This document shows positions 38,576 through 64,000 of a DNA stretch of 64,000 nt, piece after piece. Within the stretch, counting starts at the first letter, position 1; each line of letters begins with the position of its first letter. Made by a program: the position numbers and the translations under genes. Origin of the DNA: Phytopythium helicoides (lineage: Eukaryota; Oomycota; Peronosporomycetes; Pythiales; Pythiaceae); NCBI GenBank assembly GCA_024867545.1, contig JANFNE010000004.1, positions 1,302,001-1,366,000 on the forward strand, written 5' to 3'. The notes below the pieces were generated by a model that saw only the letters and a list, made by a program, of their open reading frames with translations, did no database searches and was not told where the DNA came from.

Positions 38576-38781
38576 GGTCGCCAACCACCTCGCTTCCCCT
38601 CCCGATGTCCTTTCCGGGGCGATGCGATTCCGCAGGTTTCTCTCCGAGCGGCTTCCGCGGGGTATGTGTTCTGGTAGGATATGCCAGCGCAGACCACAGG
38701 ATCGGTCTCTCCCCCCCCCTTCGCGACTGAGCAGGAGACCACCGGACGCGGGCGACGCAGGCGAAGCGAGCGACGGAAGCC

Positions 38782-41172: not shown

Positions 41173-41370
41173 CGGCCGCCGGATCTTCTGCGTTATGTGC
41201 GCACCGGGGGAAAATGGGGAGGAAAGATCGTCGAGTGGACATCTTGGAATTTGTATACCCACAACTCCGACTGCAGAGCAGGACGTTCCGCTTGGTGTGG
41301 GACACATTATTCAGAGTTGCACGACAGTCGACCCAACATGACGATGGACGTTCGTGACAGTCCGGGCTGA

Positions 41371-43399: not shown

Positions 43400-43933
43400 C
43401 TATAAAATCTCTGGATCGGGCTCATCATCTCCGGCTTGCATAGCACGGAACCGAGACCGCGCTTTCGCACTTTTATCAAATTCGAACAGTAGCTGTCCGC
43501 AGGATAGTTGAGCCGCTGGTAACCATTCGGGATCGGCATAGCCGACCCATTTGACAAGATATTCTCTTGTTCGGCGGGGCGTGCGAGTTCGCTTGACCCA
43601 TCGTACGTCGAGTATCTCTTCGGCCTCGTACTCGTCTGCGTCGGCCTCTGGCTCCCAGCTGTCTTCTGGCAGAAGCGCTGCGTCCCAGTCGTCGTCCTCG
43701 TCGAGCTCGAGGATCTCGGTTGGCCGGTCCGGGAACGCCACTCTTGGCTTGAGCCGGCCGACGTGTACCCATGGGTGGATACGGTATCCGGTACCTTCGA
43801 TGCAAAGCTTGACGCGGAAGTTGTCGGACTTCTCGACAATAGTGAACGGTCCGTGCCACAAATGTGCCAATTTCTTGGTCAACCCAGGCTGGACGCGCGC
43901 TAGGTATAGCCAGACCACGTCTCCAACCTCACC
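43400..43933 (-). pseudogene. Ty3/gypsy polyprotein remnant: integrase C-terminus plus chromodomain
   Basis: The minus-strand frame reads VGDVVWLYLARVQPGLTKKL, AHLWHGPFTIVEKSDNFRVK, the typical GPY/F-like end of a Ty3/gypsy integrase (W-x-G-P-F). Then follow H-V-G-R-L-K-P, an acidic linker, and a chromodomain: EAEEILDVRWVKR, REYLVKWVGYADPEWLPAAQ, ending in a stop at 43400. Everything upstream (protease, RT, RNase H, integrase core) is missing: the frame runs straight into the tandem array at 43933/43934. Chromodomains in chromoviruses steer integration to marked chromatin. No LTR could be recognised within the window. Confidence 0.85.
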
Positions 43934-44079
43934 AAAAACAACACCACACAAAACACTTTACCAACACATATATCACAATCTCTCACACACATATCCCTAC
44001 ACATCTTTGCAAACCAACCACATGCCAAATACTCAACACCGAGAAATCAACCCCAAGCCAACCAAACGCGCACGCACAT

Positions 44080-44330
44080 ACGCACCCAGTACGACTTGGG
44101 GAATTGTATGCGAACATGCCTCGTTTTTGTTCCAACACGTCTCCATTCTCGTCGACGACATGGCGACCCAAGGACATGCCGGTGTGACAGCAGTTGGAGG
44201 TATCAAAGAGTAGTTTGCTTGTGTTGAGAATGGCATCAATTTGGGTCGAACACACTTTTTTGTGTGGAGTGAGTTGGCATCGTGTGGTATGGGTCGATGG
44301 GTCGATGAGTGATTGTGAAAACTGAAAAGG
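44080..44330. other. Conserved non-tRNA block of the array unit (unit 1 copy)
   Basis: About 250-300 bp of mixed base composition, in contrast to the CA-rich spacers, and preserved in every unit. It includes a hairpin CACAC-T6-GTGTG at about 44249-44265. Frames through it are open in most units, but a 2-bp deletion in units 2, 12, 13, 14 and 18 shifts them, which argues against coding. I could not match it to U1, U2, U4, U5, U6, U6atac, 5S or 7SL RNA signatures. It could be an unknown non-coding RNA, a Pol III regulatory region or an origin. Confidence 0.5.
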
Positions 44331-44364
44331 CAGTGATTGAGTGGTCGGATGGAGATGGGGACAA

Positions 44365-44372
44365 TATAAATA
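44365..44372. promoter_or_regulatory. TATA-like element TATAAATA in array unit (unit 1 copy)
   Basis: TATAAATA on the plus strand, or TATTTATA on the minus strand, 56 bp beyond the 3' end of tRNA-Val; present in every unit. On the minus strand it would face the conserved unidentified block; on the plus strand it faces the back of tRNA-Val. Which, if either, is used is unknown. Confidence 0.4.
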
Positions 44373-44427
44373 GAAGGTCGTGTGAGGTGTGTGTGCGAGC
44401 GGCAAAGTAAGGAAAGTAGCAATAAGA

Positions 44428-44500
44428 TATCAGAGGAGGGGATCGAACCCTCGATCTTGAGCGTGTTAAGCTCACGTCCTAACCACTAGACGACACTGAC
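44428..44500 (-). tRNA. tRNA-Val(AAC), unit 1
   Basis: 73 nt including discriminator A; no intron. The anticodon stem TGAGC/GCTCA closes the loop TTAACAC, giving anticodon AAC. The T arm is GAGGG-TTCGATC-CCCTC (box B GGTTCGATC) and the D arm GTCTAGTGGTTAGGAC (box A). The acceptor pairs GTCAGTG with CTCTGAT, with one T-T mismatch at 6:67 and a G-T wobble at 1:72. The reading is unambiguous for valine. All array copies of the gene appear identical by eye. Confidence 0.93.
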
Positions 44501-44737
44501 ACTTGTCAAACACACTCATCAACACAAATATCACATACCACACAACACACACAACACACAAAATACACAAAATACAAAACATGTATACTATACACAACAA
44601 ACAACAAACAACACAACAAACGAACACATTCATATCACTCCATACCACTACACCATGACGGTTACACCTACCCTAATCGCATGTCATAACAAGTGGAAAC
44701 CAATCTACTATTCACCTTCTCCTCCCATGAATCCACA

Positions 44738-44769
44738 GATCCACCGATCCACGGATCCACGGATCCGTG
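44738..44769. repeat. GATCCAC short repeats ending in 12-bp palindrome (unit 1 copy)
   Basis: Four successive GATCCAC/GATCCG-type words end in the perfect palindrome CACGGATCCGTG (44758-44769), about 90 bp downstream of tRNA-Ser in its own direction. Repeated in every unit; from unit 11 onward the following base changes (GTGGGC instead of GTGAGC). Confidence 0.8.
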
Positions 44770-44826
44770 AGCAGGTGGAGGAGAAAAAGTGTGCAATGGA
44801 TGTGCCAATATGGGTTGAAAGACACG

Positions 44827-44832
44827 AAAAAA
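44827..44832 (-). terminator. Pol III T6 terminator of tRNA-Ser (unit 1 copy)
   Basis: Six T residues on the minus strand, 28 nt beyond the 3' end of the tRNA-Ser gene, as expected for RNA polymerase III termination. The same run is present in each unit. No equivalent run follows tRNA-Val for about 100 nt. Confidence 0.75.
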
Positions 44833-44859
44833 GAAGGGGGAGAAAGAACATAAAGCGGT

Positions 44860-44940
44860 CGACAGCTGTGAGATTTGAACTCACGCGGGTTACCCCAATA
44901 GATTTCTAGTCTATCGCCTTAACCACTCGGCCAAGCTGTC
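44860..44940 (-). tRNA. tRNA-Ser(AGA), unit 1
   Basis: 81-nt class II tRNA with long variable arm (TGGGGTAACCCGC). The acceptor GACAGCT/AGCTGTC is perfect and the discriminator G is typical of serine. The anticodon stem ATAGA/TCTAT closes loop CTAGAAA, anticodon AGA. The T arm is GTGAG-TTCAAAT-CTCAC. Intronless and apparently functional. Confidence 0.96.
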
Positions 44941-45496
44941 GGTCGAAAACCATCATTCCACACCTCACCGACCACCTACTCACTATCACACACAAACACA
45001 CACAAAAAACAACACCACACAAAACACTTTACCAACACATATATCACAATCTCTCACACACATATCCCTACACATCTTTGCAAACCAACCACATGCCAAA
45101 TACTCAACACCGAGAAATCAACCCCAAGCCAACCAAACGCGCACGCACATACGCACCCAGTACGACTTGGAATTGTATGCGAACATGCCTCGTTTTTGTT
45201 CCAACACGTCTCCATTCTCGTCGACGACATGGCGACCCAAGGACATGCCGGTGTGACAGCAGTTGGAGGTATCAAAGAGTAGTTTGCTTGTGTTGAGAAT
45301 GGCATCAATTTGGGTCGAACACACTTTTTTGTGTGGAGTGAGTTGGCATCGTGTGGTATGGGTCGATGGGTCGATGAGTGATTGTGAAAACTGAAAAGGC
45401 AGTGATTGAGTGGTCGGATGGAGATGGGGACAATATAAATAGAAGGTCGTGTGAGGTGTGTGTGCGAGCGGCAAAGTAAGGAAAGTAGCAATAAGA

Positions 45497-45569
45497 TATC
45501 AGAGGAGGGGATCGAACCCTCGATCTTGAGCGTGTTAAGCTCACGTCCTAACCACTAGACGACACTGAC
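45497..45569 (-). tRNA. tRNA-Val(AAC), unit 2
   Basis: Array copy, gene sequence as in unit 1; the flanking conserved block carries the 2-bp deletion (CTTGGAATTG). Confidence 0.93.
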
Positions 45570-45928
45570 ACTTGTCAAACACACTCATCAACACAAATAT
45601 CACATACCACACAACACACACAACACACAAAATACACAAAATACAAAACATGTATACTATACACAACAAACAACAAACAACACAACAAACGAACACATTC
45701 ATATCACTCCATACCACTACACCATGACGGTTACACCTACCCTAATCGCATGTCATAACAAGTGGAAACCAATCTACTATCCACCTTCTCCTCCCATGAA
45801 TCCACAGATCCACCGATCCACGGATCCACGGATCCGTGAGCAGGTGGAGGAGAAAAAGTGTGCAATGGATGTGCCAATATGGGTTGAAAGACACGAAAAA
45901 AGAAGGGGGAGAAAGAACATAAAGCGGT

Positions 45929-46009
45929 CGACAGCTGTGAGATTTGAACTCACGCGGGTTACCCCAATAGATTTCTAGTCTATCGCCTTAACCACTCGGC
46001 CAAGCTGTC
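45929..46009 (-). tRNA. tRNA-Ser(AGA), unit 2
   Basis: Array copy, gene sequence as in unit 1. Confidence 0.96.
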
Positions 46010-46567
46010 GGTCGAAAACCATCATTCCACACCTCACCGACCACCTACTCACTATCACACACAAACACACACAAAAAACAACACCACACAAAACACTTTA
46101 CCAACACATATATCACAATCTCTCACACACATATCCCTACACATCTTTGCAAACCAACCACATGCCAAATACTCAACACCGAGAAATCAACCCCAAGCCA
46201 ACCAAACGCGCACGCACATACGCACCCAGTACGACTTGGGGAATTGTATGCGAACATGCCTCGTTTTTGTTCCAACACGTCTCCATTCTCGTCGACGACA
46301 TGGCGACCCAAGGACATGCCGGTGTGACAGCAGTTGGAGGTATCAAAGAGTAGTTTGCTTGTGTTGAGAATGGCATCAATTTGGGTCGAACACACTTTTT
46401 TGTGTGGAGTGAGTTGGCATCGTGTGGTATGGGTCGATGGGTCGATGAGTGATTGTGAAAACTGAAAAGGCAGTGATTGAGTGGTCGGATGGAGATGGGG
46501 ACAATATAAATAGAAGGTCGTGTGAGGTGTGTGTGCGAGCGGCAAAGTAAGGAAAGTAGCAATAAGA

Positions 46568-46640
46568 TATCAGAGGAGGGGATCGAACCCTCGATCTTGA
46601 GCGTGTTAAGCTCACGTCCTAACCACTAGACGACACTGAC
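46568..46640 (-). tRNA. tRNA-Val(AAC), unit 3
   Basis: Array copy, as unit 1. Confidence 0.93.
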
Positions 46641-46999
46641 ACTTGTCAAACACACTCATCAACACAAATATCACATACCACACAACACACACAACACACA
46701 AAATACACAAAATACAAAACATGTATACTATACACAACAAACAACAAACAACACAACAAACGAACACATTCATATCACTCCATACCACTACACCATGACG
46801 GTTACACCTACCCTAATCGCATCTCATAACAAGTGGAAACCAATCTACTATCCACCTTCTCCTCCCATGAATCCACAGATCCACCGATCCACGGATCCAC
46901 GGATCCGTGAGCAGGTGGAGGAGAAAAAGTGTGCAATGGATGTGCCAATATGGGTTGAAAGACACGAAAAAAGAAGGGGGAGAAAGAACATAAAGCGGT

Positions 47000-47080
47000 C
47001 GACAGCTGTGAGATTTGAACTCACGCGGGTTACCCCAATAGATTTCTAGTCTATCGCCTTAACCACTCGGCCAAGCTGTC
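47000..47080 (-). tRNA. tRNA-Ser(AGA), unit 3
   Basis: Array copy, as unit 1; the spacer has the CATCTCAT variant shared only with unit 4. Confidence 0.96.
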
Positions 47081-47638
47081 GGTCGAAAACCATCATTCCA
47101 CACCTCACCGACCACCTACTCACTATCACACACAAACACACACAAAAAACAACACCACACAAAACACTTTACCAACACATATATCACAATCTCTCACACA
47201 CATATCCCTACACATCTTTGCAAACCAACCACATGCCAAATACTCAACACCGAGAAATCAACCCCAAGCCAACCAAACGCGCACGCACATACGCACCCAG
47301 TACGACTTGGGGAATTGTATGCGAACATGCCTCGTTTTTGTTCCAACACGTCTCCATTCTCGTCGACGACATGGCGACCCAAGGACATGCCGGTGTGACA
47401 GCAGTTGGAGGTATCAAAGAGTAGTTTGCTTGTGTTGAGAATGGCATCAATTTGGGTCGAACACACTTTTTTGTGTGGAGTGAGTTGGCATCGTGTGGTA
47501 TGGGTCGATGGGTCGATGAGTGATTGTGAAAACTGAAAAGGCAGTGATTGAGTGGTCGGATGGAGATGGGGACAATATAAATAGAAGGTCGTGTGAGGTG
47601 TGTGTGCGAGCGGCAAAGTAAGGAAAGTAGCAATAAGA

Positions 47639-47711
47639 TATCAGAGGAGGGGATCGAACCCTCGATCTTGAGCGTGTTAAGCTCACGTCCTAACCACTAG
47701 ACGACACTGAC
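47639..47711 (-). tRNA. tRNA-Val(AAC), unit 4
   Basis: Array copy, as unit 1. Confidence 0.93.
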
Positions 47712-48070
47712 ACTTGTCAAACACACTCATCAACACAAATATCACATACCACACAACACACACAACACACAAAATACACAAAATACAAAACATGTATACT
47801 ATACACAACAAACAACAAACAACACAACAAACGAACACATTCATATCACTCCATACCACTACACCATGACGGTTACACCTACCCTAATCGCATCTCATAA
47901 CAAGTGGAAACCAATCTACTATCCACCTTCTCCTCCCATGAATCCACAGATCCACCGATCCACGGATCCACGGATCCGTGAGCAGGTGGAGGAGAAAAAG
48001 TGTGCAATGGATGTGCCAATATGGGTTGAAAGACACGAAAAAAGAAGGGGGAGAAAGAACATAAAGCGGT

Positions 48071-48151
48071 CGACAGCTGTGAGATTTGAACTCACGCGGG
48101 TTACCCCAATAGATTTCTAGTCTATCGCCTTAACCACTCGGCCAAGCTGTC
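48071..48151 (-). tRNA. tRNA-Ser(AGA), unit 4
   Basis: Array copy, as unit 1; spacer variant CATCTCAT. Confidence 0.96.
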
Positions 48152-48709
48152 GGTCGAAAACCATCATTCCACACCTCACCGACCACCTACTCACTATCAC
48201 ACACAAACACACACAAAAAACAACACCACACAAAACACTTTACCAACACATATATCACAATCTCTCACACACATATCCCTACACATCTTTGCAAACCAAC
48301 CACATGCCAAATACTCAACACCGAGAAATCAACCCCAAGCCAACCAAACGCGCACGCACATACGCACCCAGTACGACTTGGGGAATTGTATGCGAACATG
48401 CCTCGTTTTTGTTCCAACACGTCTCCATTCTCGTCGACGACATGGCGACCCAAGGACATGCCGGTGTGACAGCAGTTGGAGGTATCAAAGAGTAGTTTGC
48501 TTGTGTTGAGAATGGCATCAATTTGGGTCGAACACACTTTTTTGTGTGGAGTGAGTTGGCATCGTGTGGTATGGGTCGATGGGTCGATGAGTGATTGTGA
48601 AAACTGAAAAGGCAGTGATTGAGTGGTCGGATGGAGATGGGGACAATATAAATAGAAGGTCGTGTGAGGTGTGTGTGCGAGCGGCAAAGTAAGGAAAGTA
48701 GCAATAAGA

Positions 48710-48782
48710 TATCAGAGGAGGGGATCGAACCCTCGATCTTGAGCGTGTTAAGCTCACGTCCTAACCACTAGACGACACTGAC
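48710..48782 (-). tRNA. tRNA-Val(AAC), unit 5
   Basis: Array copy, as unit 1. Confidence 0.93.
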
Positions 48783-49141
48783 ACTTGTCAAACACACTCA
48801 TCAACACAAATATCACATACCACACAACACACACAACACACAAAATACACAAAATACAAAACATGTATACTATACACAACAAACAACAAACAACACAACA
48901 AACGAACACATTCATATCACTCCATACCACTACACCATGACGGTTACACCTACCCTAATCGCATGTCATAACAAGTGGAAACCAATCTACTATCCACCTT
49001 CTCCTCCCATGAATCCACAGATCCACCGATCCACGGATCCACGGATCCGTGAGCAGGTGGAGGAGAAAAAGTGTGCAATGGATGTGCCAATATGGGTTGA
49101 AAGACACGAAAAAAGAAGGGGGAGAAAGAACATAAAGCGGT

Positions 49142-49222
49142 CGACAGCTGTGAGATTTGAACTCACGCGGGTTACCCCAATAGATTTCTAGTCTATCGCC
49201 TTAACCACTCGGCCAAGCTGTC
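49142..49222 (-). tRNA. tRNA-Ser(AGA), unit 5
   Basis: Array copy, as unit 1. Confidence 0.96.
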
Positions 49223-49780
49223 GGTCGAAAACCATCATTCCACACCTCACCGACCACCTACTCACTATCACACACAAACACACACAAAAAACAACACCAC
49301 ACAAAACACTTTACCAACACATATATCACAATCTCTCACACACATATCCCTACACATCTTTGCAAACCAACCACATGCCAAATACTCAACACCGAGAAAT
49401 CAACCCCAAGCCAACCAAACGCGCACGCACATACGCACCCAGTACGACTTGGGGAATTGTATGCGAACATGCCTCGTTTTTGTTCCAACACGTCTCCATT
49501 CTCGTCGACGACATGGCGACCCAAGGACATGCCGGTGTGACAGCAGTTGGAGGTATCAAAGAGTAGTTTGCTTGTGTTGAGAATGGCATCAATTTGGGTC
49601 GAACACACTTTTTTGTGTGGAGTGAGTTGGCATCGTGTGGTATGGGTCGATGGGTCGATGAGTGATTGTGAAAACTGAAAAGGCAGTGATTGAGTGGTCA
49701 GATGGAGATGGGGACAATATAAATAGAAGGTCGTGTGAGGTGTGTGTGCGAGCGGCAAAGTAAGGAAAGTAGCAATAAGA

Positions 49781-49853
49781 TATCAGAGGAGGGGATCGAA
49801 CCCTCGATCTTGAGCGTGTTAAGCTCACGTCCTAACCACTAGACGACACTGAC
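49781..49853 (-). tRNA. tRNA-Val(AAC), unit 6
   Basis: Array copy; 3' flank has the GGTCAGATGG variant. Confidence 0.93.
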
Positions 49854-50212
49854 ACTTGTCAAACACACTCATCAACACAAATATCACATACCACACAACA
49901 CACACAACACACAAAATACACAAAATACAAAACATGTATACTATACACAACAAACAACAAACAACACAACAAACGAACACATTCATATCACTCCATACCA
50001 CTACACCATGACGGTTACACCTACCCTAATCGCATGTCATAACAAGTGGAAACCAATCTACTATCCACCTTCTCCTCCCATGAATCCACAGATCCACCGA
50101 TCCACGGATCCACGGATCCGTGAGCAGGTGGAGGAGAAAAAGTGTGCAATGGATGTGCCAATATGGGTTGAAAGACACGAAAAAAGAAGGGGGAGAAAGA
50201 ACATAAAGCGGT

Positions 50213-50293
50213 CGACAGCTGTGAGATTTGAACTCACGCGGGTTACCCCAATAGATTTCTAGTCTATCGCCTTAACCACTCGGCCAAGCTGTC
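50213..50293 (-). tRNA. tRNA-Ser(AGA), unit 6
   Basis: Array copy, as unit 1. Confidence 0.96.
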
Positions 50294-50851
50294 GGTCGAA
50301 AACCATCATTCCACACCTCACCGACCACCTACTCACTATCACACACAAACACACACAAAAAACAACACCACACAAAACACTTTACCAACACATATATCAC
50401 AATCTCTCACACACATATCCCTACACATCTTTGCAAACCAACCACATGCCAAATACTCAACACCGAGAAATCAACCCCAAGCCAACCAAACGCGCACGCA
50501 CATACGCACCCAGTACGACTTGGGGAATTGTATGCGAACATGCCTCGTTTTTGTTCCAACACGTCTCCATTCTCGTCGACGACATGGCGACCCAAGGACA
50601 TGCCGGTGTGACAGCAGTTGGAGGTATCAAAGAGTAGTTTGCTTGTGTTGAGAATGGCATCAATTTGGGTCGAACACACTTTTTTGTGTGGAGTGAGTTG
50701 GCATCGTGTGGTATGGGTCGATGGGTCGATGAGTGATTGTGAAAACTGAAAAGGCAGTGATTGAGTGGTCGGATGGAGATGGGGACAATATAAATAGAAG
50801 GTCGTGTGAGGTGTGTGTGCGAGCGGCAAAGTAAGGAAAGTAGCAATAAGA

Positions 50852-50924
50852 TATCAGAGGAGGGGATCGAACCCTCGATCTTGAGCGTGTTAAGCTCACG
50901 TCCTAACCACTAGACGACACTGAC
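50852..50924 (-). tRNA. tRNA-Val(AAC), unit 7
   Basis: Array copy, as unit 1. Confidence 0.93.
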
Positions 50925-51283
50925 ACTTGTCAAACACACTCATCAACACAAATATCACATACCACACAACACACACAACACACAAAATACACAAAATACA
51001 AAACATGTATACTATACACAACAAACAACAAACAACACAACAAACGAACACATTCATATCACTCCATACCACTACACCATGACGGTTACACCTACCCTAA
51101 TCGCATGTCATAACAAGTGGAAACCAATCTACTATCCACCTTCTCCTCCCATGAATCCACAGATCCACCGATCCACGGATCCACGGATCCGTGAGCAGGT
51201 GGAGGAGAAAAAGTGTGCAATGGATGTGCCAATATGGGTTGAAAGACACGAAAAAAGAAGGGGGAGAAAGAACATAAAGCGGT

Positions 51284-51364
51284 CGACAGCTGTGAGATTT
51301 GAACTCACGCGGGTTACCCCAATAGATTTCTAGTCTATCGCCTTAACCACTCGGCCAAGCTGTC
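51284..51364 (-). tRNA. tRNA-Ser(AGA), unit 7
   Basis: Array copy, as unit 1. Confidence 0.96.
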
Positions 51365-51922
51365 GGTCGAAAACCATCATTCCACACCTCACCGACCACC
51401 TACTCACTATCACACACAAACACACACAAAAAACAACACCACACAAAACACTTTACCAACACATATATCACAATCTCTCACACACATATCCCTACACATC
51501 TTTGCAAACCAACCACATGCCAAATACTCAACACCGAGAAATCAACCCCAAGCCAACCAAACGCGCACGCACATACGCACCCAGTACGACTTGGGGAATT
51601 GTATGCGAACATGCCTCGTTTTTGTTCCAACACGTCTCCATTCTCGTCGACGACATGGCGACCCAAGGACATGCCGGTGTGACAGCAGTTGGAGGTATCA
51701 AAGAGTAGTTTGCTTGTGTTGAGAATGGCATCAATTTGGGTCGAACACACTTTTTTGTGTGGAGTGAGTTGGCATCGTGTGGTATGGGTCGATGGGTCGA
51801 TGAGTGATTGTGAAAACTGAAAAGGCAGTGATTGAGTGGTCGGATGGAGATGGGGACAATATAAATAGAAGGTCGTGTGAGGTGTGTGTGCGAGCGGCAA
51901 AGTAAGGAAAGTAGCAATAAGA

Positions 51923-51995
51923 TATCAGAGGAGGGGATCGAACCCTCGATCTTGAGCGTGTTAAGCTCACGTCCTAACCACTAGACGACACTGAC
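51923..51995 (-). tRNA. tRNA-Val(AAC), unit 8
   Basis: Array copy, as unit 1. Confidence 0.93.
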
Positions 51996-52354
51996 ACTTG
52001 TCAAACACACTCATCAACACAAATATCACATACCACACAACACACACAACACACAAAATACACAAAATACAAAACATGTATACTATACACAACAAACAAC
52101 AAACAACACAACAAACGAACACATTCATATCACTCCATACCACTACACCATGACGGTTACACCTACCCTAATCGCATGTCATAACAAGTGGAAACCAATC
52201 TACTATCCACCTTCTCCTCCCATGAATCCACAGATCCACCGATCCACGGATCCACGGATCCGTGAGCAGGTGGAGGAGAAAAAGTGTGCAATGGATGTGC
52301 CAATATGGGTTGAAAGACACGAAAAAAGAAGGGGGAGAAAGAACATAAAGCGGT

Positions 52355-52435
52355 CGACAGCTGTGAGATTTGAACTCACGCGGGTTACCCCAATAGATTT
52401 CTAGTCTATCGCCTTAACCACTCGGCCAAGCTGTC
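52355..52435 (-). tRNA. tRNA-Ser(AGA), unit 8
   Basis: Array copy, as unit 1. Confidence 0.96.
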
Positions 52436-52993
52436 GGTCGAAAACCATCATTCCACACCTCACCGACCACCTACTCACTATCACACACAAACACACACAA
52501 AAAACAACACCACACAAAACACTTTACCAACACATATATCACAATCTCTCACACACATATCCCTACACATCTTTGCAAACCAACCACATGCCAAATACTC
52601 AACACCGAGAAATCAACCCCAAGCCAACCAAACGCGCACGCACATACGCACCCAGTACGACTTGGGGAATTGTATGCGAACATGCCTCGTTTTTGTTCCA
52701 ACACGTCTCCATTCTCGTCGACGACATGGCGACCCAAGGACATGCCGGTGTGACAGCAGTTGGAGGTATCAAAGAGTAGTTTGCTTGTGTTGAGAATGGC
52801 ATCAATTTGGGTCGAACACACTTTTTTGTGTGGAGTGAGTTGGCATCGTGTGGTATGGGTCGATGGGTCGATGAGTGATTGTGAAAACTGAAAAGGCAGT
52901 GATTGAGTGGTCAGATGGAGATGGGGACAATATAAATAGAAGGTCGTGTGAGGTGTGTGTGCGAGCGGCAAAGTAAGGAAAGTAGCAATAAGA

Positions 52994-53066
52994 TATCAGA
53001 GGAGGGGATCGAACCCTCGATCTTGAGCGTGTTAAGCTCACGTCCTAACCACTAGACGACACTGAC
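52994..53066 (-). tRNA. tRNA-Val(AAC), unit 9
   Basis: Array copy; 3' flank has the GGTCAGATGG variant. Confidence 0.93.
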
Positions 53067-53425
53067 ACTTGTCAAACACACTCATCAACACAAATATCAC
53101 ATACCACACAACACACACAACACACAAAATACACAAAATACAAAACATGTATACTATACACAACAAACAACAAACAACACAACAAACGAACACATTCATA
53201 TCACTCCATACCACTACACCATGACGGTTACACCTACCCTAATCGCATGTCATAACAAGTGGAAACCAATCTACTATCCACCTTCTCCTCCCATGAATCC
53301 ACAGATCCACCGATCCACGGATCCACGGATCCGTGAGCAGGTGGAGGAGAAAAAGTGTGCAATGGATGTGCCAATATGGGTTGAAAGACACGAAAAAAGA
53401 AGGGGGAGAAAGAACATAAAGCGGT

Positions 53426-53506
53426 CGACAGCTGTGAGATTTGAACTCACGCGGGTTACCCCAATAGATTTCTAGTCTATCGCCTTAACCACTCGGCCAA
53501 GCTGTC
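53426..53506 (-). tRNA. tRNA-Ser(AGA), unit 9
   Basis: Array copy, as unit 1. Confidence 0.96.
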
Positions 53507-54064
53507 GGTCGAAAACCATCATTCCACACCTCACCGACCACCTACTCACTATCACACACAAACACACACAAAAAACAACACCACACAAAACACTTTACCA
53601 ACACATATATCACAATCTCTCACACACATATCCCTACACATCTTTGCAAACCAACCACATGCCAAATACTCAACACCGAGAAATCAACCCCAAGCCAACC
53701 AAACGCGCACGCACATACGCACCCAGTACGACTTGGGGAATTGTATGCGAACATGCCTCGTTTTTGTTCCAACACGTCTCCATTCTCGTCGACGACATGG
53801 CGACCCAAGGACATGCCGGTGTGACAGCAGTTGGAGGTATCAAAGAGTAGTTTGCTTGTGTTGAGAATGGCATCAATTTGGGTCGAACACACTTTTTTGT
53901 GTGGAGTGAGTTGGCATCGTGTGGTATGGGTCGATGGGTCGATGAGTGATTGTGAAAACTGAAAAGGCAGTGATTGAGTGGTCGGATGGAGATGGGGACA
54001 ATATAAATAGAAGGTCGTGTGAGGTGTGTGTGCGAGCGGCAAAGTAAGGAAAGTAGCAATAAGA

Positions 54065-54137
54065 TATCAGAGGAGGGGATCGAACCCTCGATCTTGAGCG
54101 TGTTAAGCTCACGTCCTAACCACTAGACGACACTGAC
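54065..54137 (-). tRNA. tRNA-Val(AAC), unit 10
   Basis: Array copy, as unit 1. Confidence 0.93.
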
Positions 54138-54496
54138 ACTTGTCAAACACACTCATCAACACAAATATCACATACCACACAACACACACAACACACAAAA
54201 TACACAAAATACAAAACATGTATACTATACACAACAAACAACAAACAACACAACAAACGAACACATTCATATCACTCCATACCACTACACCATGACGGTT
54301 ACACCTACCCTAATCGCATGTCATAACAAGTGGAAACCAATCTACTATCCACCTTCTCCTCCCATGAATCCACAGATCCACCGATCCACGGATCCACGGA
54401 TCCGTGAGCAGGTGGAGGAGAAAAAGTGTGCAATGGATGTGCCAATATGGGTTGAAAGACACGAAAAAAGAAGGGGGAGAAAGAACATAAAGCGGT

Positions 54497-54577
54497 CGAC
54501 AGCTGTGAGATTTGAACTCACGCGGGTTACCCCAATAGATTTCTAGTCTATCGCCTTAACCACTCGGCCAAGCTGTC
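54497..54577 (-). tRNA. tRNA-Ser(AGA), unit 10
   Basis: Array copy; last unit with the GTGAGC form of the palindrome flank. Confidence 0.96.
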
Positions 54578-55135
54578 GGTCGAAAACCATCATTCCACAC
54601 CTCACCGACCACCTACTCACTATCACACACAAACACACACAAAAAACAACACCACACAAAACACTTTACCAACACATATATCACAATCTCTCACACACAT
54701 ATCCCTACACATCTTTGCAAACCAACCACATGCCAAATACTCAACACCGAGAAATCAACCCCAAGCCAACCAAACGCGCACGCACATACGCACCCAGTAC
54801 GACTTGGGGAATTGTATGCGAACATGCCTCGTTTTTGTTCCAACACGTCTCCATTCTCGTCGACGACATGGCGACCCAAGGACATGCCGGTGTGACAGCA
54901 GTTGGAGGTATCAAAGAGTAGTTTGCTTGTGTTGAGAATGGCATCAATTTGGGTCGAACACACTTTTTTGTGTGGAGTGAGTTGGCATCGTGTGGTATGG
55001 GTCGATGGGTCGATGAGTGATTGTGAAAACTGAAAAGGCAGTGATTGAGTGGTCGGATGGAGATGGGGACAATATAAATAGAAGGTCGTGTGAGGTGTGT
55101 GTGCGAGCGGCAAAGTAAGGAAAGTAGCAATAAGA

Positions 55136-55208
55136 TATCAGAGGAGGGGATCGAACCCTCGATCTTGAGCGTGTTAAGCTCACGTCCTAACCACTAGACG
55201 ACACTGAC
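55136..55208 (-). tRNA. tRNA-Val(AAC), unit 11
   Basis: Array copy; the 5' flank has ACAAACATCAC and a 1-bp deletion shared only with unit 15. Confidence 0.93.
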
Positions 55209-55566
55209 ACTTGTCAAACACACTCATCAACACAAACATCACATACCACACAACACACACAACACACAAAATACACAAAATACAAAACATGTATACTATA
55301 CACAACAACAACAAACAACACAACAAACGAACACATTCATATCACTCCATACCACTACACCATGACGGTTACACCTACCCTAATCGCATGTCATAACAAG
55401 TGGAAACCAATCTACTATCCACCTTCTCCTCCCATGAATCCACAGATCCACCGATCCACGGATCCACGGATCCGTGGGCAGGTGGAGGAGAAAAAGTGTG
55501 CAATGGATGTGCCAATATGGGTTGAAAGACACGAAAAAAGAAGGGGGAGAAAGAACATAAAGCGGT

Positions 55567-55647
55567 CGACAGCTGTGAGATTTGAACTCACGCGGGTTAC
55601 CCCAATAGATTTCTAGTCTATCGCCTTAACCACTCGGCCAAGCTGTC
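55567..55647 (-). tRNA. tRNA-Ser(AGA), unit 11
   Basis: Array copy; first unit with the GTGGGC palindrome flank. Confidence 0.96.
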
Positions 55648-56203
55648 GGTCGAAAACCATCATTCCACACCTCACCGACCACCTACTCACTATCACACAC
55701 AAACACACACAAAAAACAACACCACACAAAACACTTTACCAACACATATATCACAATCTCTCACACACATATCCCTACACATCTTTGCAAACCAACCACA
55801 TGCCAAATACTCAACACCGAGAAATCAACCCCAAGCCAACCAAACGCGCACGCACATACGCACCCAGTACGACTTGGAATTGTATGCGAACATGCCTCGT
55901 TTTTGTTCCAACACGTCTCCATTCTCGTCGACGACATGGCGACCCAAGGACATGCCGGTGTGACAGCAGTTGGAGGTATCAAAGAGTAGTTTGCTTGTGT
56001 TGAGAATGGCATCAATTTGGGTCGAACACACTTTTTTGTGTGGAGTGAGTTGGCATCGTGTGGTATGGGTCGATGGGTCGATGAGTGATTGTGAAAACTG
56101 AAAAGGCAGTGATTGAGTGGTCAGATGGAGATGGGGACAATATAAATAGAAGGTCGTGTGAGGTGTGTGTGCGAGCGGCAAAGTAAGGAAAGTAGCAATC
56201 AGA

Positions 56204-56276
56204 TATCAGAGGAGGGGATCGAACCCTCGATCTTGAGCGTGTTAAGCTCACGTCCTAACCACTAGACGACACTGAC
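56204..56276 (-). tRNA. tRNA-Val(AAC), unit 12
   Basis: Array copy; the 3' flank has CAATCAG, shared with units 13 and 14. Confidence 0.93.
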
Positions 56277-56635
56277 ACTTGTCAAACACACTCATCAACA
56301 CAAATATCACATACCACACAACACACACAACACACAAAATACACAAAATACAAAACATGTATACTATACACAACAAACAACAAACAACACAACAAACGAA
56401 CACATTCATATCACTCCATACCACTACACCATGACGGTTACACCTACCCTAATCGCATGTCATAACAAGTGGAAACCAATCTACTATCCACCTTCTCCTC
56501 CCATGAATCCACAGATCCACCGATCCACGGATCCACGGATCCGTGGGCAGGTGGAGGAGAAAAAGTGTGCAATGGATGTGCCAATATGGGTTGAAAGACA
56601 CGAAAAAAGAAGGGGGAGAAAGAACATAAAGCGGT

Positions 56636-56716
56636 CGACAGCTGTGAGATTTGAACTCACGCGGGTTACCCCAATAGATTTCTAGTCTATCGCCTTAACC
56701 ACTCGGCCAAGCTGTC
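56636..56716 (-). tRNA. tRNA-Ser(AGA), unit 12
   Basis: Array copy, as unit 1. Confidence 0.96.
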
Positions 56717-57272
56717 GGTCGAAAACCATCATTCCACACCTCACCGACCACCTACTCACTATCACACACAAACACACACAAAAAACAACACCACACAAAA
56801 CACTTTACCAACACATATATCACAATCTCTCACACACATATCCCTACACATCTTTGCAAACCAACCACATGTCAAATACTCAACACCGAGAAATCAACCC
56901 CAAGCCAACCAAACGCGCACGCACATACGCACCCAGTACGACTTGGAATTGTATGCGAACATGCCTCGTTTTTGTTCCAACACGTCTCCATTCTCGTCGA
57001 CGACATGGCGACCCAAGGACATGCCGGTGTGACAGCAGTTGGAGGTATCAAAGAGTAGTTTGCTTGTGTTGAGAATGGCATCAATTTGGGTCGAACACAC
57101 TTTTTTGTGTGGAGTGAGTTGGCATCGTGTGGTATGGGTCGATGGGTCGATGAGTGATTGTGAAAACTGAAAAGGCAGTGATTGAGTGGTCAGATGGAGA
57201 TGGGGACAATATAAATAGAAGGTCGTGTGAGGTGTGTGTGCGAGCGGCAAAGTAAGGAAAGTAGCAATCAGA

Positions 57273-57345
57273 TATCAGAGGAGGGGATCGAACCCTCGAT
57301 CTTGAGCGTGTTAAGCTCACGTCCTAACCACTAGACGACACTGAC
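57273..57345 (-). tRNA. tRNA-Val(AAC), unit 13
   Basis: Array copy; CAATCAG flank. Confidence 0.93.
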
Positions 57346-57704
57346 ACTTGTCAAACACACTCATCAACACAAATATCACATACCACACAACACACACAAC
57401 ACACAAAATACACAAAATACAAAACATGTATACTATACACAACAAACAACAAACAACACAACAAACGAACACATTCATATCACTCCATACCACTACACCA
57501 TGACGGTTACACCTACCCTAATCGCATGTCATAACAAGTGGAAACCAATCTACTATCCACCTTCTCCTCCCATGAATCCACAGATCCACCGATCCACGGA
57601 TCCACGGATCCGTGGGCAGGTGGAGGAGAAAAAGTGTGCAATGGATGTGCCAATATGGGTTGAAAGACACGAAAAAAGAAGGGGGAGAAAGAACATAAAG
57701 CGGT

Positions 57705-57785
57705 CGACAGCTGTGAGATTTGAACTCACGCGGGTTACCCCAATAGATTTCTAGTCTATCGCCTTAACCACTCGGCCAAGCTGTC
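57705..57785 (-). tRNA. tRNA-Ser(AGA), unit 13
   Basis: Array copy, as unit 1. Confidence 0.96.
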
Positions 57786-58341
57786 GGTCGAAAACCATCA
57801 TTCCACACCTCACCGACCACCTACTCACTATCACACACAAACACACACAAAAAACAACACCACACAAAACACTTTACCAACACATATATCACAATCTCTC
57901 ACACACATATCCCTACACATCTTTGCAAACCAACCACATGCCAAATACTCAACACCGAGAAATCAACCCCAAGCCAACCAAACGCGCACGCACATACGCA
58001 CCCAGTACGACTTGGAATTGTATGCGAACATGCCTCGTTTTTGTTCCAACACGTCTCCATTCTCGTCGACGACATGGCGACCCAAGGACATGCCGGTGTG
58101 ACAGCAGTTGGAGGTATCAAAGAGTAGTTTGCTTGTGTTGAGAATGGCATCAATTTGGGTCGAACACACTTTTTTGTGTGGAGTGAGTTGGCATCGTGTG
58201 GTATGGGTCGATGGGTCGATGAGTGATTGTGAAAACTGAAAAGGCAGTGATTGAGTGGTCAGATGGAGATGGGGACAATATAAATAGAAGGTCGTGTGAG
58301 GTGTGTGTGCGAGCGGCAAAGTAAGGAAAGTAGCAATCAGA

Positions 58342-58414
58342 TATCAGAGGAGGGGATCGAACCCTCGATCTTGAGCGTGTTAAGCTCACGTCCTAACCAC
58401 TAGACGACACTGAC
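58342..58414 (-). tRNA. tRNA-Val(AAC), unit 14
   Basis: Array copy; CAATCAG flank. Confidence 0.93.
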
Positions 58415-58773
58415 ACTTGTCAAACACACTCATCAACACAAATATCACATACCACACAACACACACAACACACAAAATACACAAAATACAAAACATGTAT
58501 ACTATACACAACAAACAACAAACAACACAACAAACGAACACATTCATATCACTCCATACCACTACACCATGACGGTTACACCTACCCTAATCGCATGTCA
58601 TAACAAGTGGAAACCAATCTACTATCCACCTTCTCCTCCCATGAATCCACAGATCCACCGATCCACGGATCCACGGATCCGTGGGCAGGTGGAGGAGAAA
58701 AAGTGTGCAATGGATGTGCCAATATGGGTTGAAAGACACGAAAAAAGAAGGGGGAGAAAGAACATAAAGCGGT

Positions 58774-58854
58774 CGACAGCTGTGAGATTTGAACTCACGC
58801 GGGTTACCCCAATAGATTTCTAGTCTATCGCCTTAACCACTCGGCCAAGCTGTC
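58774..58854 (-). tRNA. tRNA-Ser(AGA), unit 14
   Basis: Array copy, as unit 1. Confidence 0.96.
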
Positions 58855-59412
58855 GGTCGAAAACCATCATTCCACACCTCACCGACCACCTACTCACTAT
58901 CACACACAAACACACACAAAAAACAACACCACACAAAACACTTTACCAACACATATATCACAATCTCTCACACACATATCCCTACACATCTTTGCAAACC
59001 AACCACATGCCAAATACTCAACACCGAGAAATCAACCCCAAGCCAACCAAACGCGCACGCACATACGCACCCAGTACGACTTGGGGAATTGTATGCGAAC
59101 ATGCCTCGTTTTTGTTCCAACACGTCTCCATTCTCGTCGACGACATGGCGACCCAAGGACATGCCGGTGTGACAGCAGTTGGAGGTATCAAAGAGTAGTT
59201 TGCTTGTGTTGAGAATGGCATCAATTTGGGTCGAACACACTTTTTTGTGTGGAGTGAGTTGGCATCGTGTGGTATGGGTCGATGGGTCGATGAGTGATTG
59301 TGAAAACTGAAAAGGCAGTGATTGAGTGGTCAGATGGAGATGGGGACAATATAAATAGAAGGTCGTGTGAGGTGTGTGTGCGAGCGGCAAAGTAAGGAAA
59401 GTAGCAATAAGA

Positions 59413-59485
59413 TATCAGAGGAGGGGATCGAACCCTCGATCTTGAGCGTGTTAAGCTCACGTCCTAACCACTAGACGACACTGAC
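59413..59485 (-). tRNA. tRNA-Val(AAC), unit 15
   Basis: Array copy; 5' flank as in unit 11. Confidence 0.93.
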
Positions 59486-59843
59486 ACTTGTCAAACACAC
59501 TCATCAACACAAACATCACATACCACACAACACACACAACACACAAAATACACAAAATACAAAACATGTATACTATACACAACAACAACAAACAACACAA
59601 CAAACGAACACATTCATATCACTCCATACCACTACACCATGACGGTTACACCTACCCTAATCGCATGTCATAACAAGTGGAAACCAATCTACTATCCACC
59701 TTCTCCTCCCATGAATCCACAGATCCACCGATCCACGGATCCACGGATCCGTGGGCAGGTGGAGGAGAAAAAGTGTGCAATGGATGTGCCAATATGGGTT
59801 GAAAGACACGAAAAAAGAAGGGGGAGAAAGAACATAAAGCGGT

Positions 59844-59924
59844 CGACAGCTGTGAGATTTGAACTCACGCGGGTTACCCCAATAGATTTCTAGTCTATCG
59901 CCTTAACCACTCGGCCAAGCTGTC
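59844..59924 (-). tRNA. tRNA-Ser(AGA), unit 15
   Basis: Array copy, as unit 1. Confidence 0.96.
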
Positions 59925-60482
59925 GGTCGAAAACCATCATTCCACACCTCACCGACCACCTACTCACTATCACACACAAACACACACAAAAAACAACACC
60001 ACACAAAACACTTTACCAACACATATATCACAATCTCTCACACACATATCCCTACACATCTTTGCAAACCAACCACATGCCAAATACTCAACACCGAGAA
60101 ATCAACCCCAAGCCAACCAAACGCGCACGCACATACGCACCCAGTACGACTTGGGGAATTGTATGCGAACATGCCTCGTTTTTGTTCCAACACGTCTCCA
60201 TTCTCGTCGACGACATGGCGACCCAAGGACATGCCGGTGTGACAGCAGTTGGAGGTATCAAAGAGTAGTTTGCTTGTGTTGAGAATGGCATCAATTTGGG
60301 TCGAACACACTTTTTTGTGTGGAGTGAGTTGGCATCGTGTGGTATGGGTCGATGGGTCGATGAGTGATTGTGAAAACTGAAAAGGCAGTGATTGAGTGGT
60401 CGGATGGAGATGGGGACAATATAAATAGAAGGTCGTGTGAGGTGTGTGTGCGAGCGGCAAAGTAAGGAAAGTAGCAATAAGA

Positions 60483-60555
60483 TATCAGAGGAGGGGATCG
60501 AACCCTCGATCTTGAGCGTGTTAAGCTCACGTCCTAACCACTAGACGACACTGAC
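60483..60555 (-). tRNA. tRNA-Val(AAC), unit 16
   Basis: Array copy, as unit 1. Confidence 0.93.
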
Positions 60556-60914
60556 ACTTGTCAAACACACTCATCAACACAAATATCACATACCACACAA
60601 CACACACAACACACAAAATACACAAAATACAAAACATGTATACTATACACAACAAACAACAAACAACACAACAAACGAACACATTCATATCACTCCATAC
60701 CACTACACCATGACGGTTACACCTACCCTAATCGCATGTCATAACAAGTGGAAACCAATCTACTATCCACCTTCTCCTCCCATGAATCCACAGATCCACC
60801 GATCCACGGATCCACGGATCCGTGGGCAGGTGGAGGAGAAAAAGTGTGCAATGGATGTGCCAATATGGGTTGAAAGACACGAAAAAAGAAGGGGGAGAAA
60901 GAACATAAAGCGGT

Positions 60915-60995
60915 CGACAGCTGTGAGATTTGAACTCACGCGGGTTACCCCAATAGATTTCTAGTCTATCGCCTTAACCACTCGGCCAAGCTGTC
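60915..60995 (-). tRNA. tRNA-Ser(AGA), unit 16
   Basis: Array copy, as unit 1. Confidence 0.96.
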
Positions 60996-61553
60996 GGTCG
61001 AAAACCATCATTCCACACCTCACCGACCACCTACTCACTATCACACACAAACACACACAAAAAACAACACCACACAAAACACTTTACCAACACATATATC
61101 ACAATCTCTCACACACATATCCCTACACATCTTTGCAAACCAACCACATGCCAAATACTCAACACCGAGAAATCAACCCCAAGCCAACCAAACGCGCACG
61201 CACATACGCACCCAGTACGACTTGGGGAATTGTATGCGAACATGCCTCGTTTTTGTTCCAACACGTCTCCATTCTCGTCGACGACATGGCGACCCAAGGA
61301 CATGCCGGTGTGACAGCAGTTGGAGGTATCAAAGAGTAGTTTGCTTGTGTTGAGAATGGCATCAATTTGGGTCGAACACACTTTTTTGTGTGGAGTGAGT
61401 TGGCATCGTGTGGTATGGGTCGATGGGTCGATGAGTGATTGTGAAAACTGAAAAGGCAGTGATTGAGTGGTCGGATGGAGATGGGGACAATATAAATAGA
61501 AGGTCGTGTGAGGTGTGTGTGCGAGCGGCAAAGTAAGGAAAGTAGCAATAAGA

Positions 61554-61626
61554 TATCAGAGGAGGGGATCGAACCCTCGATCTTGAGCGTGTTAAGCTCA
61601 CGTCCTAACCACTAGACGACACTGAC
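61554..61626 (-). tRNA. tRNA-Val(AAC), unit 17
   Basis: Array copy, as unit 1. Confidence 0.93.
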
Positions 61627-61985
61627 ACTTGTCAAACACACTCATCAACACAAATATCACATACCACACAACACACACAACACACAAAATACACAAAATA
61701 CAAAACATGTATACTATACACAACAAACAACAAACAACACAACAAACGAACACATTCATATCACTCCATACCACTACACCATGACGGTTACACCTACCCT
61801 AATCGCATGTCATAACAAGTGGAAACCAATCTACTATCCACCTTCTCCTCCCATGAATCCACAGATCCACCGATCCACGGATCCACGGATCCGTGGGCAG
61901 GTGGAGGAGAAAAAGTGTGCAATGGATGTGCCAATATGGGTTGAAAGACACGAAAAAAGAAGGGGGAGAAAGAACATAAAGCGGT

Positions 61986-62066
61986 CGACAGCTGTGAGAT
62001 TTGAACTCACGCGGGTTACCCCAATAGATTTCTAGTCTATCGCCTTAACCACTCGGCCAAGCTGTC
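61986..62066 (-). tRNA. tRNA-Ser(AGA), unit 17
   Basis: Array copy; the 17-bp deletion of unit 18 lies in the spacer just beyond (about 62130). Confidence 0.96.
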
Positions 62067-62605
62067 GGTCGAAAACCATCATTCCACACCTCACCGACCA
62101 CCTACTCACTATCACACACAAACACACACAAAACACTTTACCAACACATATATCACAATCTCTCACACACATATCCCTACACATCTTTGCAAACCAACCA
62201 CATGCCAAATACTCAACACCGAGAAATCAACCCCAAGCCAACCAAACGCGCACGCACATACGCACCCAGTACGACTTGGAATTGTATGCGAACATGCCTC
62301 GTTTTTGTTCCAACACGTCTCCATTCTCGTCGACGACATGGCGACCCAAGGACATGCCGGTGTGGCAGCAGTTGGAGGTATCAAAGAGAAGTTTGCTTGT
62401 GTTGAGAATGGCATCATTTTGGGTCGAACACACTTTTTTGTGTGGAGTGAGTTGGCATCGTGTGGTATGGGTCGATGGGTCGATGAGTGATTGTGAAAAC
62501 TGAAAAGGCAGTGATTGAGTGGTCGGATGGAGATGGGGACAATATAAATAGAAGGTCGTGTGAGGTGTGTGTGCGAGCGGCAAAGTAAGGAAAGTAGCAA
62601 TAAGA

Positions 62606-62678
62606 TATCAGAGGAGGGGATCGAACCCTCGATCTTGAGCGTGTTAAGCTCACGTCCTAACCACTAGACGACACTGAC
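62606..62678 (-). tRNA. tRNA-Val(AAC), unit 18
   Basis: Array copy; the adjoining conserved block has three private substitutions, but the tRNA itself is unchanged. Confidence 0.93.
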
Positions 62679-63037
62679 ACTTGTCAAACACACTCATCAA
62701 CACAAATATCACATACCACACAACACACACAACACACAAAATACACAAAATACAAAACATGTATACTATACACAACAAACAACAAACAACACAACAAACG
62801 AACACATTCATATCACTCCATACCACTACACCATGACGGTTACACCTACCCTAATCGCATGTCATAACAAGTGGAAACCAATCTACTATCCACCTTCTCC
62901 TCCCATGAATCCACAGATCCACCGATCCACGGATCCACGGATCCGTGGGCAGGTGGAGGAGAAAAAGTGTGCAATGGATGTGCCAATATGGGTTGAAAGA
63001 CACGAAAAAAGAAGGGGGAGAAAGAACATAAAGCGGT

Positions 63038-63118
63038 CGACAGCTGTGAGATTTGAACTCACGCGGGTTACCCCAATAGATTTCTAGTCTATCGCCTTAA
63101 CCACTCGGCCAAGCTGTC
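63038..63118 (-). tRNA. tRNA-Ser(AGA), unit 18
   Basis: Array copy, as unit 1. Confidence 0.96.
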
Positions 63119-63676
63119 GGTCGAAAACCATCATTCCACACCTCACCGACCACCTACTCACTATCACACACAAACACACACAAAAAACAACACCACACAA
63201 AACACTTTACCAACACATATATCACAATCTCTCACACACATATCCCTACACATCTTTGCAAACCAACCACATGCCAAATACTCAACACCGAGAAATCAAC
63301 CCCAAGCCAACCAAACGCGCACGCACATACGCACCCAGTACGACTTGGGGAATTGTATGCGAACATGCCTCGTTTTTGTTCCAACACGTCTCCATTCTCG
63401 TCGACGACATGGCGACCCAAGGACATGCCGGTGTGACAGCAGTTGGAGGTATCAAAGAGTAGTTTGCTTGTGTTGAGAATGGCATCAATTTGGGTCGAAC
63501 ACACTTTTTTGTGTGGAGTGAGTTGGCATCGTGTGGTATGGGTCGATGGGTCGATGAGTGATTGTGAAAACTGAAAAGGCAGTGATTGAGTGGTCAGATG
63601 GAGATGGGGACAATATAAATAGAAGGTCGTGTGAGGTGTGTGTGCGAGCGGCAAAGTAAGGAAAGTAGCAATAAGA

Positions 63677-63749
63677 TATCAGAGGAGGGGATCGAACCCT
63701 CGATCTTGAGCGTGTTAAGCTCACGTCCTAACCACTAGACGACACTGAC
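63677..63749 (-). tRNA. tRNA-Val(AAC), unit 19
   Basis: Array copy; the matching tRNA-Ser of this unit would lie beyond the window edge. Confidence 0.93.
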
Positions 63750-64000
63750 ACTTGTCAAACACACTCATCAACACAAATATCACATACCACACAACACACA
63801 CAACACACAAAATACACAAAATACAAAACATGTATACTATACACAACAAACAACAAACAACACAACAAACGAACACATTCATATCACTCCATACCACTAC
63901 ACCATGACGGTTACACCTACCCTAATCGCATGTCATAACAAGTGGAAACCAATCTACTATCCACCTTCTCCTCCCATGAATCCACAGATCCACCGATCCA

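Follow-up and report, generated by a model that had tools for sequence, protein, structure and literature searches.

Introduction

In the oomycete Phytophthora infestans, nearly all of the 85 copies of the transfer RNA (tRNA) genes for Val-AAC and Ser-AGA are reported to lie on Chr11, in a dimeric tandem repeat of 850 nucleotides (nt) (Matson et al. 2022, PMC9584435). Here we analyze an array of the same gene pair in a 64,000-nt stretch of an oomycete genome (hereafter the window, C35:1302001-1366000; C35 is a contig of 1.97 Mb in a 49.06-Mb assembly of 100 contigs). The initial annotation of this stretch held that no Val-Ser array had been described in an oomycete, which was mistaken, as the P. 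infestans array on Chr11 carries the same two anticodons (PMC9584435). According to the same account, the P. infestans chromosomes carry 7,519 tRNA genes, ∼64% of them in single-gene tandem arrays and 36% in dimeric or trimeric ones, and the latter include a Thr-CGT/Trp-CCA/Ser-GCT array. Arrays of this kind are thus already in print for P. infestans; relative to that description, what our analysis adds is the finding that all detected genes for the two isoacceptors lie in the present array, together with a second array that has a published gene set.

A different view of such loci comes from Peronospora effusa, in which Skiadas et al. 2024 (PMC11540230) describe 33 to 39 tRNA clusters per isolate that hold ∼99.6% of the annotated tRNA genes. 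Those clusters were proposed to be like short interspersed nuclear elements (SINE-like), each found at one location and thought unable to mobilize. Consensus units of up to 1,070 bp and a conserved open reading frame (ORF) between the tRNA genes were described, variation of the clusters was ascribed to nonallelic homologous recombination, and the clusters were added to the transposable-element library used for masking (PMC11540230). Are oomycete arrays tRNA genes, as in the account of Matson et al. (PMC9584435), or SINE-like repeats, as in that of Skiadas et al. (PMC11540230)? On this point the two published descriptions are in dispute.

Beyond the oomycetes, the arrays described from Entamoeba (Tawari et al., PMC2652664) likewise consist of tandem multi-tRNA units that are uniform within a genome, with intergenic short tandem repeats in some species, and a chromosome-end role in place of telomeric repeats was proposed for them. 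Entamoeba is an unrelated lineage, and the proposal as published does not fit the present locus, which is internal on a contig that has telomere-like repeats at one end. In Arabidopsis, the Ser-Tyr-Tyr (SYY) cluster is likewise a tandem cluster of tRNAs for different amino acids, but it is reported to lie among redundant tRNA genes and to be silenced in most tissues (PMC12308677), whereas no other copies were detected here.

Extent and anatomy of the array

ARAGORN predicted 19 Val(AAC) and 18 Ser(AGA) genes in the window, making 37 tRNA genes in total; they occupy positions 44426 to 63750 and share the minus strand. Every one of them scored well over the Rfam tRNA cut-off of 29 bits (58.9 bits for Val and 61.9 bits for Ser), in agreement with the initial description of the genes as intact. 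All 19 Val copies in the window have the same sequence, as do all 18 Ser copies. Eighteen Val-to-Val units, 1,052 to 1,071 bp in length, are complete within the window; the 19th is interrupted by the window end, and its Ser gene lies beyond (L009:106-190). The earlier count of 19 units, each with two intact tRNA genes, therefore stands as to the 19 Val genes, the single strand, the unit length of ∼1,071 bp and the near-identity of the units, but only 18 Ser genes fall within the window. The left coordinate first given for the array, 43934, was right to within a few bases, with local alignment placing the edge at 43930. The features of the array in the window are the following:

43930..64000, minus strand: tandem Val(AAC)-Ser(AGA) units of ∼1,071 bp, continuing beyond the window to C35:1400281
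43930..44425, minus strand: left-most repeat, partial, spacer only, fused leftward to non-array sequence (from local alignment and sequence)
44426..44501, minus strand: first tRNA-Val(AAC) (ARAGORN span; Rfam span 44428-44500)
44857..44941, minus strand: first tRNA-Ser(AGA) (ARAGORN span; Rfam span 44860-44940)
45495..46565, minus strand: representative complete unit of 1,071 bp, from one Val to the next
63035..63119, minus strand: 18th tRNA-Ser(AGA), the last of the window (ARAGORN)
63675..63750, minus strand: 19th tRNA-Val(AAC), the last of the window (ARAGORN)

The array is real, and it is larger than the 19 units first noticed. It spans C35:1345930-1400281 (54,352 bp) and holds 51 Val and 50 Ser genes in 50 full units, with its end reached in the same contig at window coordinate 98281; these copy numbers are those of the assembly, and their exact values are not guaranteed. 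Non-array DNA borders the array on the left and on the right, all in one contig and with no Ns. At the right edge, the repeat breaks off between a Val gene and the place of the following Ser gene; beyond it come non-array DNA and genes for amino-acid permeases. Across the whole array, 1 of the 51 Val copies deviates, by a single substitution at contig position 1366746, and the 50 Ser copies are identical. As published, the P. infestans Chr11 array is like this one in its isoacceptors, its dimeric and tandem structure, its (nearly) single location and its high copy number, and differs in the size of the unit and the number of copies (850 nt and 85 copies there, 1,071 bp and 51/50 copies here).

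Within the unit, the Ser and Val genes lie on the same strand; along the direction of transcription, the shorter spacing is that from a Ser gene to the Val gene after it. A T6 run begins 25 nt downstream of the Ser gene. Tandem Repeats Finder reported short tandem repeats of 16 bp and 8 bp in the window units; with a longest period of 500, it reported such short internal repeats only and not the 1-kb unit itself. A sensitive Rfam scan of one unit revealed no further RNA genes at gathering score, and matches in the unit to microRNA families and to Plastid-ycf2 were rejected as far below their gathering scores. ORFs overlapping the unit reach 140 amino acids.

Uniformity among units and local clustering of variants

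Pairwise comparison of the 50 full units yielded a mean identity of 99.83% (gaps excluded) and 23 distinct sequences. With such identity across 50 units, chance resemblance is not an issue. The dimeric and trimeric arrays of P. infestans are reported to be much more diverse (PMC9584435), although such diversity is a reported pattern and not a defining trait; the uniformity seen here is a difference between the two. Adjacent units differ at 1.88 positions on average, compared to 2.55 across all pairs, and units become more different the farther apart they lie (Spearman 0.27). For neither statistic did any of 5,000 permutations come out as extreme. Such local clustering is what the local spread of variants through unequal exchange or conversion would produce.

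This arrangement also bears on the possibility of an assembly artefact, in which the assembler would have inflated a genuine but short array. Long tandem repeats are prone to error, and the published P. infestans assemblies differ from one another by about a quarter in tRNA count (PMC9584435). Here, the 23 distinct sequences among the 50 units stand in a nonrandom order, which makes simple assembly duplication unlikely; the array also contains no Ns, is flanked by non-array DNA on both sides and shares its assembly with other tRNA arrays. We consider such inflation extremely improbable as an account of the locus.

With respect to published systems, the array shares with the P. effusa clusters, as described, the large, single-location, near-identical tRNA units and the local subgroups. 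Our data agree with Skiadas et al. (PMC11540230) on a recombination mechanism and disagree with their published view on the nature of the units.

All detected Val-AAC and Ser-AGA genes lie in the array

Two patterns per gene were searched genome-wide, one for the 3′ half (anticodon to T-loop) and one for the 5′ half (A-box side to anticodon). For Ser-AGA, all matches fell in the array with both patterns (50/50 and 50/50), and the reversed-pattern controls gave 0 and 0. For Val-AAC, 51/52 and 51/54 matches fell in the array, with 19 and 5 matches for the reversed-pattern controls. The few outside Val matches (1 and 3) lie at four different places, and therefore no outside place fits both patterns. 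Because the 5′ patterns end at the anticodon, an intron directly after the anticodon would not conceal a copy. Under the patterns used, no source of Val-AAC and Ser-AGA genes other than the array was detected in the 49-Mb genome.

Spacer sequence was likewise confined to the array, with no copies outside it for the one 30-bp spacer probe used (≤3 mismatches; 51/51 matches in the array, control 0). A DNA search with the whole unit gave 24/24 scored matches in a tRNA-Val(CAC) array on contig C21; this search skips very common words and hence missed the Val-AAC/Ser-AGA array itself.

Other tRNA arrays and the SINE-like alternative

The Val-CAC array lies at C21:84092-115748 and accounts for 35/35 exact matches of a pattern taken from its own gene. 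The Val-CAC and Val-AAC genes are identical at 70/73 positions, and the anticodon change is one of the three differences, which suggests that one Val family was derived from the other by anticodon change. Near this array we observed a Tc1-like transposase and a below-cut-off match to a tyrosine recombinase (L012:2-772 and L012:2763-3455). A Lys-CTT array with 16 genes in 10 kb is located at the start of the same contig (L017, C21:1-10000). C21 apparently begins inside this array, with no telomere-like repeats seen there, and, judged from this start, tRNA arrays may be breaking the assembly.

On C4, an array has a three-gene unit, Trp-CCA/Thr-CGT/Ser-GCT; in the one unit read, the Trp gene lies on the strand opposite to the other two. 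A first Trp pattern gave 2 matches compared to 2 for its reversed control; it failed on the C4 gene because it demanded a purine where that gene has a T. When the pattern was instead modeled on the Trp-CCA gene of C4, 54/54 matches fell within C4:741039-851692 and the control gave 0; being derived from the arrayed gene, this pattern could overlook a divergent Trp gene at another place. Further arrays carry Thr-TGT on C57 and Lys-TTT on C14. All real matches of the four isoacceptors probed lie in arrays, in the case of Val-CAC and Trp-CCA only with patterns taken from the arrayed gene. The T-arm pattern GGTTCRANYCC occurs 2,145 times compared to 272 times in reverse, an excess that indicates tRNA genes numbering well above one thousand. 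In a genome-wide search with the Rfam tRNA model, 63 of 3,472 first-look candidates were scored, which provides no genome total.

Both multi-gene unit types, the dimer and the C4 trio, match gene sets of P. infestans when compared by published content (PMC9584435). For the dimer, this shared gene content suggests that the two arrays of the same gene pair are probably of common ancestry. We found no published cross-genus comparison of oomycete unit gene sets and no sole-source test in a search that left out most subscription journals.

These results bear directly on whether the units are SINE-like repeats that merely contain tRNA sequence, as proposed for P. effusa (PMC11540230). The near-identical tandem expansion in one place and the local subgroups match the published description, in which units reach 1,070 bp. 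The lack of dispersed spacer copies does not separate the two readings, because the P. effusa families are also described as single-location. Each unit here, however, pairs an entire tRNA gene for valine with one for serine, and no further Val-AAC or Ser-AGA gene in the genome was detected by both search patterns, so that the arrayed genes have no detected substitutes elsewhere. The 54/54 Trp-CCA matches in the C4 array point the same way, subject to the origin of that pattern in the array's own gene. Both the pair and the trio are also reported from P. infestans (PMC9584435), whereas SINE families are often clade-specific, according to Skiadas et al. (PMC11540230). By these pattern searches, it largely holds for this genome that arrays are the only source of needed tRNAs. 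We therefore regard the SINE-like reading as unlikely on the basis of sole-source status and not of nondispersal.

A probable functional multicopy tRNA locus

Taken together, the array is very probably a functional multicopy tRNA locus, akin to ribosomal DNA (rDNA), with recombination maintaining its uniformity and with no other source of either isoacceptor detected. In such a locus, a two-gene Ser-AGA/Val-AAC unit on one strand would have been amplified head to tail, unequal exchange or gene conversion would keep the units uniform, and RNA polymerase III would transcribe each tRNA gene separately, directed by the A and B boxes within the gene.

Several observations weigh against this interpretation. 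The Val-AAC gene has its first T4 at 98 nt downstream and none within 97 nt (45397-45494 for the gene at 45495-45570), compared to 1 to 47 nt downstream in eight other arrayed tRNA genes (one copy each, Ser-AGA included). Judged from sequence, the Val-AAC transcript may be unusually long or may end at a noncanonical signal. The sixth pair of the Val acceptor stem is mismatched; the Val-CAC gene carries the same letters at this pair. Variable columns are not significantly rarer in tRNA genes than in spacer (1/161 versus 16/911; Fisher P = 0.49), and therefore within-array variation alone shows no constraint on the genes. Val-AAC or Ser-AGA copies with unusual loops could escape the pattern searches, and the case for homology with the P. 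infestans array takes its evidence solely from published gene content (PMC9584435).

The initial annotation had stressed a strong dosage of two A34 tRNAs, and nothing in our data marks this dosage as special. A34 Val and Ser tRNAs are ordinary eukaryotic isoacceptors, and Val-CAC is also arrayed (51 detected Val-AAC genes compared to 35 detected for Val-CAC). In five nearby ORFs, Val codons are used about equally, with GTT, GTC and GTA (taken as read by the A34 tRNA) making up 119/224 and GTG (taken as read by the CAC tRNA) 105/224. The sample is too small to be worth more than a remark; as it stands, codon use does not point to any particular requirement for A34 dosage.

On a broader view, oomycete arrays could be ancient and rDNA-like, with unit gene sets (Val-AAC and Ser-AGA; Trp-CCA, Thr-CGT and Ser-GCT) kept since the ancestor shared by Phytophthora and the present Phytopythium-like oomycete, spacers turned over and each array serving as the single locus of its isoacceptor; we find this proposition evenly balanced. 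If it is true, unequal exchange at a restricted set of loci would determine the decoding capacity. With a sole-source array and two unit gene sets that agree between genera, the question can be tested in any long-read oomycete genome. Our results also suggest that genuine tRNA genes would be lost if such arrays were masked. The array further offers a clean system for the concerted evolution of small RNA polymerase III genes.

Chromosome position and neighboring genes

Telomere-like repeats mark the left contig end, 1.35 Mb away from the array; the distance to the right end is 568 kb. At the left end, CCCTAAA, which we take to be the telomeric motif, occurs 29 times in the first 3.5 kb, and the first 60 bases consist solely of CCCTAAA repeats; no telomere-like repeats were seen in the last 2 kb at the right end. 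A structural role at chromosome ends, raised in the initial annotation, is not supported, because the array is internal on its contig. The wider form of this idea is that the array is mainly a structural or chromatin element (a boundary, an aid to nuclear organization or a chromosome end) with tRNA output secondary. It draws on published proposals, namely nuclear or chromatin organization for the P. infestans arrays (Matson et al., PMC9584435) and chromosome ends for those of Entamoeba (PMC2652664). Given the internal position on a 1.97-Mb contig, away from the left end with its telomere-like repeats, we judge a mainly structural element to be highly unlikely here, and favor the functional multicopy locus. 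The array may still have a structural effect as a secondary property.

Three neighboring features lie to the left of the array:

36818..38584, minus strand: BRF1-like TFIIIB subunit gene (initiation by RNA polymerase III), at 5.3 kb from the left edge of the array
40117..41307, minus strand: 26S proteasome PSMD3-like subunit gene, neighbor of the array
43427..43933, minus strand: probable retrotransposon fragment, adjoining the array at its left edge (chromodomain match over its cut-off, Tf2-1-like SH3 match under its own)

Mobile-element remains thus occur beside two arrays, those on C35 and C21. The BRF1-like protein matches a TFIIIB 70-kDa subunit in PDB (E value of 1e-72). RNA polymerase III machinery transcribes tRNA genes. 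We weighed whether BRF1 and the array might be causally connected and did not adopt this view: it concerns a single neighborhood, noticed afterwards, and could be due to chance.

Elsewhere in the assembly, tRNA matches recur in both orientations on C89, C91 and C92. This suggests a mitochondrial genome with a large inverted repeat, present as multimeric or duplicate contigs. Cytochrome b on C89, a contig taken as mitochondrial by its genes, is 95% identical to that of Phytopythium vexans, the closest named record among the best 120 of 8,000 matches, and 89 to 93% identical to named Pythium, Globisporangium and Phytophthora records in the same set. The reference to Phytophthora in the initial annotation was close, but by cytochrome b this oomycete probably does not belong to that genus.

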